Shown here: in pieces, positions 57,283-61,354 of the stretch
Position numbering within the stretch: position 1 is the stretch's first letter
Layout: every line of letters begins with the position of its first letter
Source: Tatumella ptyseos ATCC 33301
Lineage (GTDB): Bacteria > Pseudomonadota > Gammaproteobacteria > Enterobacterales > Enterobacteriaceae
Length of the DNA: 64,000 nt
Assembly (NCBI RefSeq): GCF_000735525.1
Contig: NZ_JMPR01000041.1
Span: 1 to 64,000, forward strand
Direction of reading: 5' to 3'
Program-made: the position numbers and the translations under genes
Notes under the pieces: generated by a model
Seen by the model: the letters and a program-made list of their open reading frames with translations, nothing else
Databases searched by the model: none
Told to the model about the DNA's origin: nothing

Positions 57283-57681
57283 TTAGATGAGAAAATCATC
57301 CAGGCTTTTGCCTTCATCCAGTGCTTTTTTGATGGCTGCAGGTGTACGGCCCTGACCGGTCCAGGATTTAGTTTCACCGTTTTCGTCAGTGTATTTATAT
57401 TTCGCAGGACGCGGCGCACGTTTCACACGTTTTTTGCTGACATCAGCAGCACCAATTAATTCGTTAGGATCAATACCATCTGCCAGCAGCATTTCACGGT
57501 ATTTAGTCAGTTTTTCTTCTTTCTCACGATTCAGAGCTTGTTCAGCTTCAATTTCTTCGCGGCGTTCATTAACTACGACAGTCAGTTTCTCCAGAACTTC
57601 TTCCAGATCACTCAGTGCCAGGTCACGAGCCTGAGCGCGCAGAGTACGAATGTTGTTGAGAACTTTAAATGCATCACTCAT
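57283..57681 (-). CDS. H-NS family nucleoid-structuring protein
   Basis: Encodes 132 residues (E. coli H-NS 137, StpA 134). The N-terminal oligomerisation helices start [14 protein letters not shown] and continue in a K/E-rich coiled coil. The C-terminal DNA-binding domain has [27 protein letters not shown] with the AT-hook-like QGR motif (quoted here as SWTGQGRTP). The N-terminal half is closer to H-NS (VVVNERREE) but it ends SLDDFLI like StpA. It is not at the hns (galU-tdk) locus of E. coli, so it may be a paralogue; I leave the symbol blank. It probably silences AT-rich DNA such as the pilus cluster region, an inference. AAGGAAAAT precedes the ATG. Confidence 0.93.
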
Positions 57682-58321
57682 CTTATTTTCCTTGCTTAAC
57701 CGGGTACAATTAACAGTGTGGCTGAGATTACCTAATTTAAATAAAAAAATAAATAGCCTTAGCCTGATTATATAATATTAATGCTTACTTTAGCATTATT
57801 GGTTACACCTTGAATAAAAATTAACGACACCTTAACAGTGAATGATTTATCTGTGAACAACTCCAGGCGGTGATAAACACCCGAAAGCAGATACCCTTTC
57901 ATACCTCTGAAAAAAGATAATCATTACATTCACAGGCATTTAATTACTTAAATCTTCTTTTCTAATCAGATCATGACAGTATAAAAAAACCGGGATTATA
58001 ATTAGCACTCTCAGTGAACAATCTGATTTTGCAGGTAATCGTTTGCAATACTCAAAAAGTAGCGCTAACAGTCTCTTACTCACCGGGATTAAATTATTCC
58101 CCCGGGGATCACAGTGTTATTCACAGTAAAGGTGGAAGGCTTGCAGAAGGCTCCGGCATAAACGATAAAGTGTAATTATCAGTAAATCAGAGAGGTATAA
58201 ACAACCACAGGGAGTTGAGAGGGGTAATTAAAGGGAAACACTGTTTCCCCCGGCCATCATTCTGTAATAAACCGGGGTCCGTCCGCGGCTGACTCACTTA
58301 AGCAGGATCGTCATCTCTGAT
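57682..58321. other. 640-bp gene-free region upstream of the H-NS-family gene
   Basis: No convincing gene. Bases 57720-58000 are strongly AT-rich. A TATAAT on the minus strand (57767-57772) lies about 85 bases before the start codon and is a likely -10 for the H-NS-family gene, without a clear -35. A hairpin GGGAAA/TTTCCC (58233-58249), followed on the minus strand by TTTAATTA, may end the mntR transcript. Confidence 0.45.
57779..57798. promoter_or_regulatory. Inverted repeat just upstream of the -10 of the H-NS-family gene
   Basis: A perfect 7-bp inverted repeat TAATGCT/AGCATTA with a 6-base spacer. It lies 7 bases upstream of the candidate -10 element, where a -35 would be. A protein bound there would block or replace RNA polymerase contact. 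No known operator was recognised. Confidence 0.45.
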
Positions 58322-58789
58322 TCAGGTATTTTGAGTCGATGACTGATAAAAAGCTCTGAAGATCTCCAGCGTTTCATCGCTGACATGATGCTCAATACCT
58401 TCCGCATCCCGGTGAGCAATTTCGGAACTGATGCCCAGAGAAAGCAAAAAGTTTTCTACAATATGGTGCCTTTCACGGCTTTGCTCCGCCAGCTTTTCAC
58501 CTTCAGCGGTCAGAAAAACCCCCCGATAAGGTACCTGCTCTACCAGACCGGTGCCGGCCAGCTTTTTGAGCATTTTAGCGACTGTTGGCTGCGACACCCC
58601 CAGTCTGGCGGCCATATCTACCTGGCGGGCTTCACCAAATTCATGGATCAGGTCTGAGATTAATTCAACATAATCATCGATCAATTCACGGCGATGTGCC
58701 TCTCTGACCTGCCGAAACCCTTCAACATGCTCTTCGACATCTTTAATCGATCCCGGCCGGGAAACCGTTTTTTTCGCTCGATGATTCAT
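58322..58789 (-). CDS. mntR: Manganese-responsive transcriptional regulator MntR
   Basis: Encodes 155 residues, the same as E. coli MntR. A DtxR-family repressor that binds Mn2+ and shuts off manganese uptake while activating export. The winged helix-turn-helix is visible as [20 protein letters not shown], followed by a metal-binding dimer region with conserved His and Glu ([28 protein letters not shown]). It is divergent from an mntS-like gene, as in E. coli. Confidence 0.96.
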
Positions 58790-58887
58790 TCAACTTCCTC
58801 TTTATGACCCAGGCAATCACTGAATAGATGCCGGTAATCTGGTGCACATTGTAAACCAGCTGAGAAGAAGCTCAAATTTTTCCTGAA

Positions 58888-58899
58888 TAGCCATGGCTA
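58888..58899. promoter_or_regulatory. MntR-box-like palindrome 1
   Basis: TAGC-CATG-GCTA with AA before and AA after. The MntR consensus in enterobacteria has ATAGC-N4-GCTAT as its core. The centre is 19 bp from the second palindrome, nearly two helical turns. Confidence 0.55.
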
Positions 58900-58904
58900 A
58901 ATCA

Positions 58905-58920
58905 TATAGCCAATGCTATA
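58905..58920. promoter_or_regulatory. MntR-box-like palindrome 2
   Basis: TATAGC-CAAT-GCTATA, a perfect inverted repeat with the ATAGC-N4-GCTAT core seen in E. coli mntH and mntS operators. It lies 90 bases before the mntS-like gene and 115 before mntR, in their shared divergent region. Confidence 0.7.
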
Positions 58921-59009
58921 CCTGTCAGTATAGAGAAACGCGTTGATACGTTCTGACTGGTACAGATCTTCTCCGCAATACTCATGGTTTATTTCCGCAA
59001 GGGGGTTAT

Positions 59010-59219
59010 ATGAAATGCACAACGCACTGCACACACTGTCATCGTGACCTGAACACCCGCTCTGACGGATTCAGTAAAACAGCTCTGCTTGCATGCTTAC
59101 TGCGTCAGTCTCCCTTCCGGTTACGATTAATGCTGGCAGAGCTGCTTCTGAAGCGGCTAACCCGCCACACGGTGACGGACCAGGTTGCAGTTAATTTTTC
59201 CTGCCGTTTACACGAATGA
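59010..59219 (+). CDS. mntS: MntS-like small manganese-homeostasis protein with Cys/His-rich N-terminal extension
   Basis: Encodes 69 residues (E. coli MntS 42). Residues 33-46 read QSPFRLRLMLAELL, close to HSPFKVRLMLLSML of E. coli MntS as I remember it, and the position (divergent from mntR, with MntR-box-like sites between) is the same. MntS raises usable intracellular Mn2+, probably by inhibiting the MntP exporter. Unlike E. coli, there is an N-terminal extension with C3, H6, C7, H9, C10 and H11 (MKCTTHCTHCHRDL), a CxxxCxxC pattern that could bind metal. AAGGGGG 5 bases before the ATG supports this start. Confidence 0.75.
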   Translation: MKCTTHCTHCHRDLNTRSDGFSKTALLACLLRQSPFRLRLMLAELLLKRLTRHTVTDQVAVNFSCRLHE

Positions 59220-59258
59220 GGGGTTCTGAGACCACCCATCACTCATTGCCCCCACTCT

Positions 59259-59278
59259 CCCTGCAATATGCAGGGTTT
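59259..59278 (+). terminator. Terminator-like hairpin after the mntS-like gene
   Basis: A perfect 7-bp stem CCCTGCA/TGCAGGG with an ATA loop followed by three T, 40 bases after the stop. Confidence 0.6.
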
Positions 59279-59501
59279 CCATGCGATCCCATCATACCGC
59301 AGTCACATCCTTTCAGGGCTAAAAAAGCAGCAGCAACCTTTCACCCGGCTCCCCTGAACCGTCTCTGAACAGCAGAGGCTCTTTTCCGTAAAAAAGTGGG
59401 TATGATCTGGTGTTTCCGGAAGGGGTCATGAAAGGATCCAATAGACACTTCATCCGTCTCAGAAAGTTGCCGGGGCCCTTTTATTACCGGTTTTTACAGA
59501 T

Positions 59502-59529
59502 AAAAAAACGGCCCTGACGGGCCGTTTTT
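59502..59529 (-). terminator. Intrinsic terminator of ompX
   Basis: Stem AAAACGGCCC/GGGCCGTTTT with a TGAC loop, followed by a T-run on the minus strand, 28 bases past the ompX stop. T also follows on the plus strand, so it can act both ways. Confidence 0.93.
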
Positions 59530-59556
59530 GGTGTACTCTGAATGCATCGGGCGGGA

Positions 59557-60069
59557 TTAGAAGCTGTAACCGACGCCTGCGATCCAGGTACCGACGTCAA
59601 CGCTACGGATACGGCTCTGCTCGTAACCAACATCAACGGCGAAGTTATCGATTGGGTTGAACTGCAGACCTGCACCATAAGAGAAACCAACATCGCTGGT
59701 GTCTTGCTTCTGGTACTTAGACAGGTCGTTCATCTGGTATTTGCCGTAGCCGATACCAACAACACCGTAGATGCTAGCCCAGTCGTTCAGACGGTAAGCC
59801 GGACCACCGGTGAAGCCATAGTACTGACCTTTCTGGTAGTAATCACCTACATCACGGTTTTTCGCAGTGTAAGTGAAAGATCCGATCCAACCCAGTGGGT
59901 TAGAACCATCTTCGTAACGGTATTTCAGGTTGAAACCGTTAGCTTTGTTCAGGACACCCTGGTAATCGCTCTGTGCGTAACCACCAGTAATAGTGCTTTG
60001 TGCCATTGCTGAACCAGCAGATACTGCCAGAACGCAAGCCAGCGCTGAAAGACATGCAATTTTTTTCAT
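59557..60069 (-). CDS. ompX: Outer membrane protein X
   Basis: Encodes 170 residues from the ATG at 60069 (E. coli 171); in-frame codons upstream are not part of it. A signal peptide (MKKIACLSALACVLAVSAGSAMA) precedes an eight-strand barrel of the OmpX/Ail/Lom family: STITGGYAQSDYQG, GFNLKYRYED, GWIGSFTYTAK, AGLQFNPIDNFAVDVGYEQS and the outer-membrane assembly end WIAGVGYSF with a terminal Phe. Codon use is strongly biased, as for abundant proteins. GAGGTGATT precedes the start; the leader is long enough for sRNA control as known for ompX (CyaR, MicA). Confidence 0.96.
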   Translation of the reverse strand: MKKIACLSALACVLAVSAGSAMAQSTITGGYAQSDYQGVLNKANGFNLKYRYEDGSNPLGWIGSFTYTAKNRDVGDYYQKGQYYGFTGGPAYRLNDWASIYGVVGIGYGKYQMNDLSKYQKQDTSDVGFSYGAGLQFNPIDNFAVDVGYEQSRIRSVDVGTWIAGVGYSF

Positions 60070-60445
60070 AATCACCTCAAATGTGAAACGACTTCTTATT
60101 TCCTGACAACGACGAAAATATAGCAAAAAATAGTTGGAAACTCTGCCCTGATTTTATTGTCTAACAGATTGTTTGGTGTAACAGAACGTTACCAGTTATC
60201 TATAATCCTATGATTTTAGGCTGTTTTGAAGGTTTACTGCCGACGCAATTATTCTGTGCTTACCGGGGATTTTCAGGATATTCCTAAAATTAATGTGCAG
60301 GTTTTCTATATCGGCGGCCACGATCGCTTAAAAATCAATCAATAATGACGGTATTTTTCCGGGACTTCAGTGTGCGTTTTCGGATAATTCAGATAAACTT
60401 CCCCGCCGGATCACCTTTCGTTACTTTTTCACAGGATTTCTCCCG
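60070..60445. promoter_or_regulatory. Divergent ompX / rhtA control region
   Basis: A 376-bp gene-free stretch with promoters for both genes. The part next to ompX forms its 5' leader, the usual target of small RNAs. No operator was recognised. Confidence 0.4.
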
Positions 60446-61354
60446 ATGTCCCCGCACGACAATAAAAAGAATACCAGCCTGCTTTTTCCGATTGCCCTGT
60501 TATTAATTGCCATGATGTCATTACAGGGGGCTGCCTCGCTGGCAAAGTATCTGTTTCCGATTGCCGGAGCGCCCGGTGTCGCGGCACTCCGCCTGGGGTT
60601 ATCCACCCTTATGTTATGGGCTATTTTTAAACCCTGGCGTCTGCGCTTTAAGAAAGAACAGCGTCGCCCGCTGGTCTTTTATGGTCTGGCGTTGGGGGGA
60701 ATGAATATGTTGTTCTATCTCGCCTTACGCACCATCCCGTTAGGAATCGGTGTGGCGCTTGAATTTCTCGGCCCCCTGACCCTGGCGCTGGCCAATTCCC
60801 GGCGGCCGACAGATTTTTTCTGGATAGTGATAGCCGTGACCGGACTCGGTTTTCTTCTGCCGCTGGAACACGGCGTTTCCGATATCGATCCCTTAGGCGC
60901 CCTGCTGGCGATTTGTGCCGGAGCCTGCTGGGCAATTTATATTGTCTTCGGCCGGAAAGCCGGTATCGAACACGGTGCGGCCACCGTAGCTGCGGGATCA
61001 CTGATTGCTTCCGTCATTTATGTCCCCGCCGGGCTGACCTTCGCGGCCAGTGGATTGTGGCACTGGGAAATCCTCCCGCTGGCACTGCTTCTCGCCCTGC
61101 TTTCTAATGCCATTCCTTATTCCCTGGAAATGATGGCACTGACCCGTCTGCCTGCCAGACTCTTTGGTACGCTGATGAGCCTTGAGCCGGTTGTTGCGGC
61201 AATGTCGGGATTGATTTTCCTCGGAGAAGAGTTAAACCTTCCGCAATGGCTGGGATTAACCGCTATTATTATTGCCTCTGCAGGGTCGACTCTGACGATG
61301 CAACCTGCGAAAAATCGCCTGCGTCGTGTCCGGGTGAAATCAGCAAAATCCTGA
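60446..61354 (+). CDS. rhtA: Threonine/homoserine exporter RhtA
   Basis: Encodes 302 residues (E. coli 295). An inner-membrane EamA-family (DMT) exporter with ten hydrophobic segments in two repeats. Signatures: LQGAASLAKYLFPIAGAPGV in the first half, GVALEFLGPLTLAL, and the second-repeat SLEPVVAAMSGLIFLGEELN. Exports threonine, homoserine and related compounds. It lies between ompX and dps, as in E. coli. The C-terminal tail is basic. Confidence 0.95.
   Translation: MSPHDNKKNTSLLFPIALLLIAMMSLQGAASLAKYLFPIAGAPGVAALRLGLSTLMLWAIFKPWRLRFKKEQRRPLVFYGLALGGMNMLFYLALRTIPLGIGVALEFLGPLTLALANSRRPTDFFWIVIAVTGLGFLLPLEHGVSDIDPLGALLAICAGACWAIYIVFGRKAGIEHGAATVAAGSLIASVIYVPAGLTFAASGLWHWEILPLALLLALLSNAIPYSLEMMALTRLPARLFGTLMSLEPVVAAMSGLIFLGEELNLPQWLGLTAIIIASAGSTLTMQPAKNRLRRVRVKSAKS

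Follow-up and report, generated by a model that had tools for sequence, protein, structure and literature searches.

The closest described counterpart of the protein considered here is MntS of Escherichia coli, which belongs to the few small proteins with a known action on a metal exporter. In the parts of PMC4361602 that bear on it, MntS is described as a protein of 42 amino acids, genetics is reported to place its action at MntP, and its Glu, Cys, Asp and His residues are reported to be dispensable for activity. The same parts state that MntS gave no help in the metallation of MnSOD, a result that the authors did not consider definitive. MntS is mentioned together with Pantoea and with Erwinia in the accessible text of PMC4676190, a paper on E. 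coli small RNAs according to its title. Among the titles retrieved, which cover part of the wider listings, a Cys-headed MntS was not found, and the pairing of MntS with Tatumella was without match.

An MntS-like gene divergent from mntR

The window, i.e., the whole stretch of 64,000 nucleotides of Tatumella ptyseos DNA that was analyzed, contains the following features around the gene of interest.

58322..58789, minus strand: mntR, the divergent neighbor (NF008273 MntR, E 1.7e-73, 245 bits, cut-off 153)
58906..58919, no strand assigned: MntR-box-like palindrome ATAGCCAATGCTAT, the sole ATAGC-N4-GCTAT within the window
58999..59005, plus strand: Shine-Dalgarno-like AAGGGGG, four bases 5' of the ATG
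59010..59219, plus strand: MntS-like ORF of 69 amino acids with an ATG start; a full-length relative in another Tatumella genome (G005) is 77% identical
59010..59102, plus strand: Cys-rich head and linker, residues 1-31, with the invariant CxxC (C7, C10) and the near-invariant C29
59109..59156, plus strand: MntS core SPFRLRLMLAELLLKR, residues 34-49, in the region matched by NF033226 (residues 33-50); core columns near-invariant
59557..60069, minus strand: ompX, the far-side neighbor (NF006917 OmpX, E 2.4e-89), its start set at ATG 60069, where the OmpX match begins

The divergent layout is that of E. coli (L074), in which mntS likewise adjoins mntR; past the MntS-like ORF, ompX and then rhtA follow. 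The palindrome, which we take to be the MntR box, is separated by 90 bases from the start codon, and the same palindrome was detected in the mntR-divergent region of 6/6 Tatumella, 8/8 Mixta, 59/61 Pantoea and 35/37 Erwinia loci. Judged by its location, the window ORF is the syntenic counterpart of mntS. An Rfam scan of positions 57600-60500 gave no family at the gathering score.

The encoded protein scored 15.4 bits (E 0.01) against the NCBIfam model NF033226 (small_MntS), for which the cut-off is 36, and five other Erwiniaceae proteins scored 16.5-26.9 bits, all below the same cut-off, versus 95.7 bits for E. coli MntS. The model misses all six of the Erwiniaceae MntS-like proteins tried. 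Nevertheless, the window ORF has the SPF-x-x-RLML core (residues 34-42), lies divergent from mntR with an MntR-box-like site, and occurs in a genome with MntP; its length of 69 residues departs from the ~42 residues expected of MntS, and the core has no start codon ahead of it inside the ORF. By the curated NCBI cut-off the protein is not MntS; its position, box, core and partners correspond to those of mntS, and it is accordingly designated "MntS-like". The window protein matched 0 Pfam families at E values up to 10. Three Pantoea and Mixta proteins likewise gave no Pfam family at cut-off, the nearest being LdpA_Fe-S-bd (E 0.018), Fer4 (E 0.067) and zf-C2H2_11 (E 0.18); by gathering score, neither a zinc finger nor a 4Fe-4S domain was recognized.

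A separate observation concerns a very hydrophobic ORF of 25-29 amino acids, similar to MNEPYLLLLMFLLFIAGLCLLLRR, which occurs between the MntR box and mntS. It lies ~178 bases from mntR in a Mixta locus (L159), and further examples were seen in Pantoea (L130, L136, L171) and Erwinia (L198). By motif it was found in 7/8 Mixta, 24/61 Pantoea, 2/37 Erwinia and 0/6 Tatumella loci, and by a looser rule in 7/8 Mixta, 25/58 Pantoea and 3/35 Erwinia. Its pN/pS was 0.10 in frame vs 0.58 and 2.82 in the shifted frames (21 distinct Pantoea segments), and 0.17 in frame vs 0.27 in one shifted frame (7 Mixta). The ORF is a candidate for a second MntR-controlled small membrane protein.

Distribution of headed and headless forms

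Loci were sampled by collecting mntR rather than mntS, and the divergent side was then read. The Pantoea set (g146) includes records named otherwise, e.g., Mixta mediterraneensis and Erwinia sp. S63; the Mixta and Erwinia sets are g130 and g119. A core match of the SPF..RL.L type was detected beside mntR in 6/6 Tatumella, 8/8 Mixta, 58/61 Pantoea and 35/37 Erwinia genomes. In the sequences from Tatumella, Mixta and Pantoea, 72 in all, the core is always preceded by CxxC, which takes the form CxxCxxC in 66; a typical headed protein of Pantoea is MSTLKCCLDCSKCFQAEKKTTTEMKSWLCLLTRSPFTLRLMLIEKLLGHKPADRRCQNLIWRG. Erwinia has a short, headless form (MKLPLLLKLFCRSPFTLRLMLLEML and similar) of 29-41 residues counted from the ATG nearest the core, and no CxxC was found in the 35 Erwinia sequences read from that ATG. 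The first-pass annotation had held that an extension missing from homologues that keep the core would be without function. Such homologues do exist, in Erwinia (35/37) and in E. coli, where the core is present and the head is absent as the annotation had stated, but the head is retained throughout Tatumella (6/6) and Mixta (8/8) and in 58/61 Pantoea. In Rosenbergiella (L054, L059, L089), the core is preceded by a longer N-terminus without CxxC, which is possibly a decayed head.

A profile of 21 headed proteins matched 167 of 392 genomes of the family. The best 12 of these 167 matches (E up to 6.9e-19, the next being 9.1e-10) all belong to Tatumella, Mixta or Pantoea, the same three genera from which the profile was built. 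One Tatumella genome (G004) matched at E 0.00172. From these comparisons of sequence, the head characterizes Tatumella, Mixta and Pantoea and is not unique to the window. On the MntR gene tree, a weak basis for counting gains and losses, the head requires four changes; the starred branches force at least two, and 0/200 bootstrap trees need only one, so that a single gain of the head is not supported by this tree.

Translation of the head

The N-terminal segment had attracted attention for its three Cys (C3, C7, C10) and three His (H6, H9, H11) and for the recognizable core SPFRLRLML beginning at residue 34, all of which are present in the translation. In-frame ATG, GTG or TTG codons occur in the window ORF at residues 1, 41 and 55 only: none was found between the head start and the core, nor upstream in the open frame. 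By ordinary initiation, therefore, the core would be made only together with the head. The claim that the AAGGGGG site ahead of the ATG marks a translated segment agrees with the wider set, in which an SD-like site (by a loose rule) precedes the head start in 72/72 headed sequences. Initiation downstream of the head was considered and set aside: an in-frame start codon downstream of the head Cys occurs in 41/72, and just three such codons have an SD-like site by the same loose rule. An extra in-frame start upstream of the chosen one was observed in 55/58 Pantoea, 3/8 Mixta and 1/6 Tatumella (L127, not the window); where upstream starts exist, the true start could lie further upstream, and the head would be translated either way.

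An open frame of this size is not rare by itself, since 6% of nucleotide shuffles were stop-free over 68 codons, and the reality of the ORF consequently rests on conservation, not on frame length. In the Pantoea head block (58 sequences), pN/pS was 0.27 with 0 stops in frame, vs 0.95 and 0.86 with 75 and 44 stops in the shifted frames; the corresponding Mixta values were 0.26 in frame vs 3.7 and 0.45 shifted. Origin of the head by chance or artefact is ruled out by its conservation and by this shifted-frame control. By the same evidence, the ORF at 59010-59219 is real.

Conserved cysteines and selection on the head

In the alignment of the 72 headed sequences, the columns of window C7 and C10 are Cys in 72/72. 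A third head Cys is present in 66/72 (all Pantoea and Mixta, no Tatumella), the C29 column, five residues before the core, is Cys in 71/72 (5/6 in Tatumella), and a C-terminal column is Cys in 65/72; the conserved Cys number five in most of the Pantoea and Mixta sequences. Which of the two Pantoea CxxC motifs the Tatumella C7/C10 pair aligns with is ambiguous, and the CxxC count is unaffected by this. The Cys codons are mixed, with TGC/TGT counts of 36/36 and 55/17 for the two invariant columns, 52/14 for the third Cys and 66/5 for C29, which indicates that the residues, and not the DNA, are conserved. The proposed conservation of three window Cys thus held for C7 and C10 and failed for C3, whose column is Cys in 28/72 (2 Tatumella, 26 Pantoea). 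In the core, P, F and two L are present in 72/72, and S and R in 71/72. G004 stands apart in having a short Cys-rich head that is quite different from the others. A single hhalign comparison of five Tatumella heads with ten Pantoea and Mixta heads gave a probability of 80% and E 1.5e-5, in an alignment that extends up to the core edge. A simple hydrophobic-moment count did not separate the forms.

In Pantoea (58 sequences), dN/dS was 0.118 for the head, 0.325 for the linker, 0.092 for the core and 0.312 for the tail, and in the three head Cys columns pN was 0 with pS 0.96. The values for Mixta (8 sequences) were 0.293, 0.219, 0.197 and 0.352, respectively. In Tatumella (5 sequences, without G004), head, linker and tail gave 0.418, 0.452 and 0.563, the core being saturated at synonymous sites; the window and G005 as a pair gave 0.447 for the head, 0.269 for the linker, 0.046 for the core and 0.604 for the tail. 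In Pantoea, purifying selection on the head comes close in strength to that on the core, and the constraint is weaker in Mixta and Tatumella. Pantoea is the only set in which the head is clearly more constrained than both linker and tail; for Mixta and the window-G005 pair its constraint does not exceed that of the linker, yet the Cys are retained.

The fast change within Tatumella, and the fact that Erwinia and E. coli manage without a head, are what would be expected if the head were a passive N-terminal extension or leader that in itself does nothing. This explanation is scarcely credible given the Cys that stay invariant across 72 sequences while their codons vary, and for Pantoea, with a head dN/dS of 0.118, it is largely refuted.

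Thiolates are poor ligands of Mn(II), and Cys-rich CxxC sites favor soft or borderline metals. Since the conserved residues of the head are thiols, Zn(II), Fe(II)/Fe-S or disulfides would be expected rather than Mn(II). The first-pass annotation had regarded the segment as the metal-binding part of a manganese chaperone, which would bind Mn(II) and pass it to client proteins, and the Cys and His ahead of the core in the window, in a gene beside an MntR-box-like site, are in keeping with that idea. The His were, however, not conserved, their columns being His in 3, 1 and 1 of 72 for H6, H9 and H11, which leaves Cys only. In the parts of PMC4361602 already cited, moreover, E. coli MntS brought no gain in MnSOD metallation (a result not considered definitive) and its ligand mutants were active. 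A manganese chaperone appears extremely improbable. As the activity of E. coli MntS needs no metal ligands, the head would be an added module and not part of the basic mechanism.

Manganese transporters and broken loci

In a selected set of 24 genomes, MntP was matched in 23 and MntH (Nramp) in all 24. The source genome (G000) has one MntP (PF02659, E 4.1e-50) and one MntH gene over cut-off, and MntR-box-like sites of a looser pattern lie near mntH and near mntP. Around its mntP, no Mn riboswitch was found at the gathering score. A fluoride riboswitch (RF01734, 47.1 bits) was observed close to mntP in this genome (contig C12, L287:1345-1422, plus strand), and another in L288 (37.7 bits, the match being incomplete at its end).

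Three Pantoea genomes lack an intact mntS. In one (G195) no MntP was matched; the second (G193) has its MntP divided between two frames and retains part of the mntS head; in the third (G172) MntP is present, the mntS head and core lie in different frames and mntR is shortened. Assembly error is possible in these cases. The broken remnants at L192 and L197, in the genomes with the split MntP (G193) or the shortened mntR (G172), have a recognizable Cys head. Two Erwinia genomes without recognizable mntS retain MntP, indicating that the losses of mntS and MntP are not strictly linked.

Of the 24 MntP loci, 22 yielded sequence by rule and two were dropped. Among these 22 sequences, no Cys column was common to all headed lineages and absent from Erwinia. 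One column is Cys in 16/16 Tatumella, Pantoea and Mixta sequences but also in 2/6 Erwinia, and two further columns are Cys in Mixta alone.

Relation of the core to SitA-like proteins

In Chimaeribacter (L099), a SitA-like periplasmic protein of the ZnuA family (PF01297, E 5.6e-88) is encoded divergently from mntR. The MntS model NF033226 matches its residues 1-40 (E 2.5e-7), and its NCBIfam matches are to other metal-binding proteins, below cut-off. SitA-like proteins that begin with the MntS core and occupy the place of mntS, divergent from mntR, were observed at L099, L101 and L102. Among the headed-profile matches listed, seventeen lie in open frames of 254-341 amino acids; in each of the six for which mntR was located (G009, G040, G059, G107, G111 and G116), the match is close to mntR on its divergent side. 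The SPF-x-x-RLML core is similar to a SitA-type signal peptide, from which it probably derives; MntS is reported to have evolved from a signal peptide, according to the title of a paper by Wright et al. SitA-like matches in Tatumella, found in 4/6 genomes, are just about 31-32% identical, so that no true SitA is shown for this genus.

The match of the core to SitA-like signal peptides, the scores below the MntS cut-off and the two Erwinia genomes that have MntP and no recognizable mntS would all suit a protein that is not MntS by function, namely a separate small Cys-rich protein belonging to the MntR regulon, with a core left over from a SitA signal peptide and no longer active on MntP. The core is, however, the most constrained part in every set with a computable dN/dS, and where Pantoea lacks an intact gene (three genomes), MntP is unmatched in one case and split in another. 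This possibility is considered improbable.

Possible role of the head

From the gene, its start, synteny, box and conservation, and the selection in Pantoea, we propose that the head, on balance, probably serves an MntP inhibitor as its soft-metal or thiol switch. At low Mn, Mn-free MntR would leave the box at 58906-58919, a mode of regulation deduced from the box, and the headed protein would then be made from the ATG at 59010, Tatumella mntS being a lineage-specific long form. The SPF-x-x-RLML core would inhibit the exporter MntP as in E. coli, so that Mn is retained by the cell. Together, the head motif (CxxC in Tatumella, CxxCxxC in the other two genera), the core-adjacent Cys and often the C-terminal Cys would most likely constitute a thiolate module, which may form disulfides or bind Zn(II), with Fe(II) or an Fe-S center as less likely ligands of the thiols. 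Soft metal or redox state could in this manner control the folding, self-association or activity of MntS.

The switch reading is favored by the synteny and box, the occurrence of the head in 72 genomes, the invariant Cys with variable codons, the selection in Pantoea, the hhalign result, the presence of MntP and MntH genes that each lie near an MntR-box-like site, the match of the MntS model to the start of a SitA-like protein and the genetics that link E. coli MntS to MntP. Against it stand the MntS scores below cut-off, the strong constraint in Pantoea only, the G004 head and the lack of the third Cys in Tatumella, together with the four changes of the head on the MntR tree and the absence of an MntP Cys column that tracks the headed lineages.

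The same Cys could instead serve a structural knuckle, in which two CxxC heads share one Zn(II) and hold an MntS dimer on MntP, with no sensing. In Tatumella, a solo Zn(Cys)4 site could not be completed by the CxxC and C29 (5/6) without the C-terminal Cys, and the Pantoea head is constrained while its linker is loose; most Pantoea and Mixta proteins have five conserved Cys, however, sufficient for an intramolecular site, and a purely structural knuckle seems rather unlikely.

The proposed switch might further act as a gate between metals or with redox, reading zinc, iron or oxidation and deciding whether the core blocks Mn export, a tentative extension that we regard as possible but doubtful. 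If true, such a gate would couple the retention of Mn in Pantoea, Mixta and Tatumella to a second signal. The invariant Cys in three genera suggest that a further level of control was added or lost, and headed MntS would represent a natural two-part protein whose core and possible switch can be separated for study.

Comparison with known systems

Zinc-knuckle and 4Fe-4S half-sites (CxxCGKxF, CxxCxxC) resemble the CLDCGKCFQ-like heads of Pantoea. This is a likeness only, as no Pfam model was matched at cut-off. The SitA-type protein of Chimaeribacter lies beside mntR as mntS does and its start fits the MntS model, but it runs on into a ZnuA-family protein and is without a Cys head. The Erwinia short form (MKxPLLLKLFCRSPFTLRLMLLEML) shares the locus, box and core of the window, and differs in its length of 29-41 residues and in the absence of CxxC from 35 sequences. 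E. coli MntS is likewise divergent from mntR, with an MntR-box-like site, the SPF-x-x-RLML core and a genome containing both MntP and MntH; it has 42 residues and no Cys-rich head, whereas the window protein has 69 residues and carries the head.
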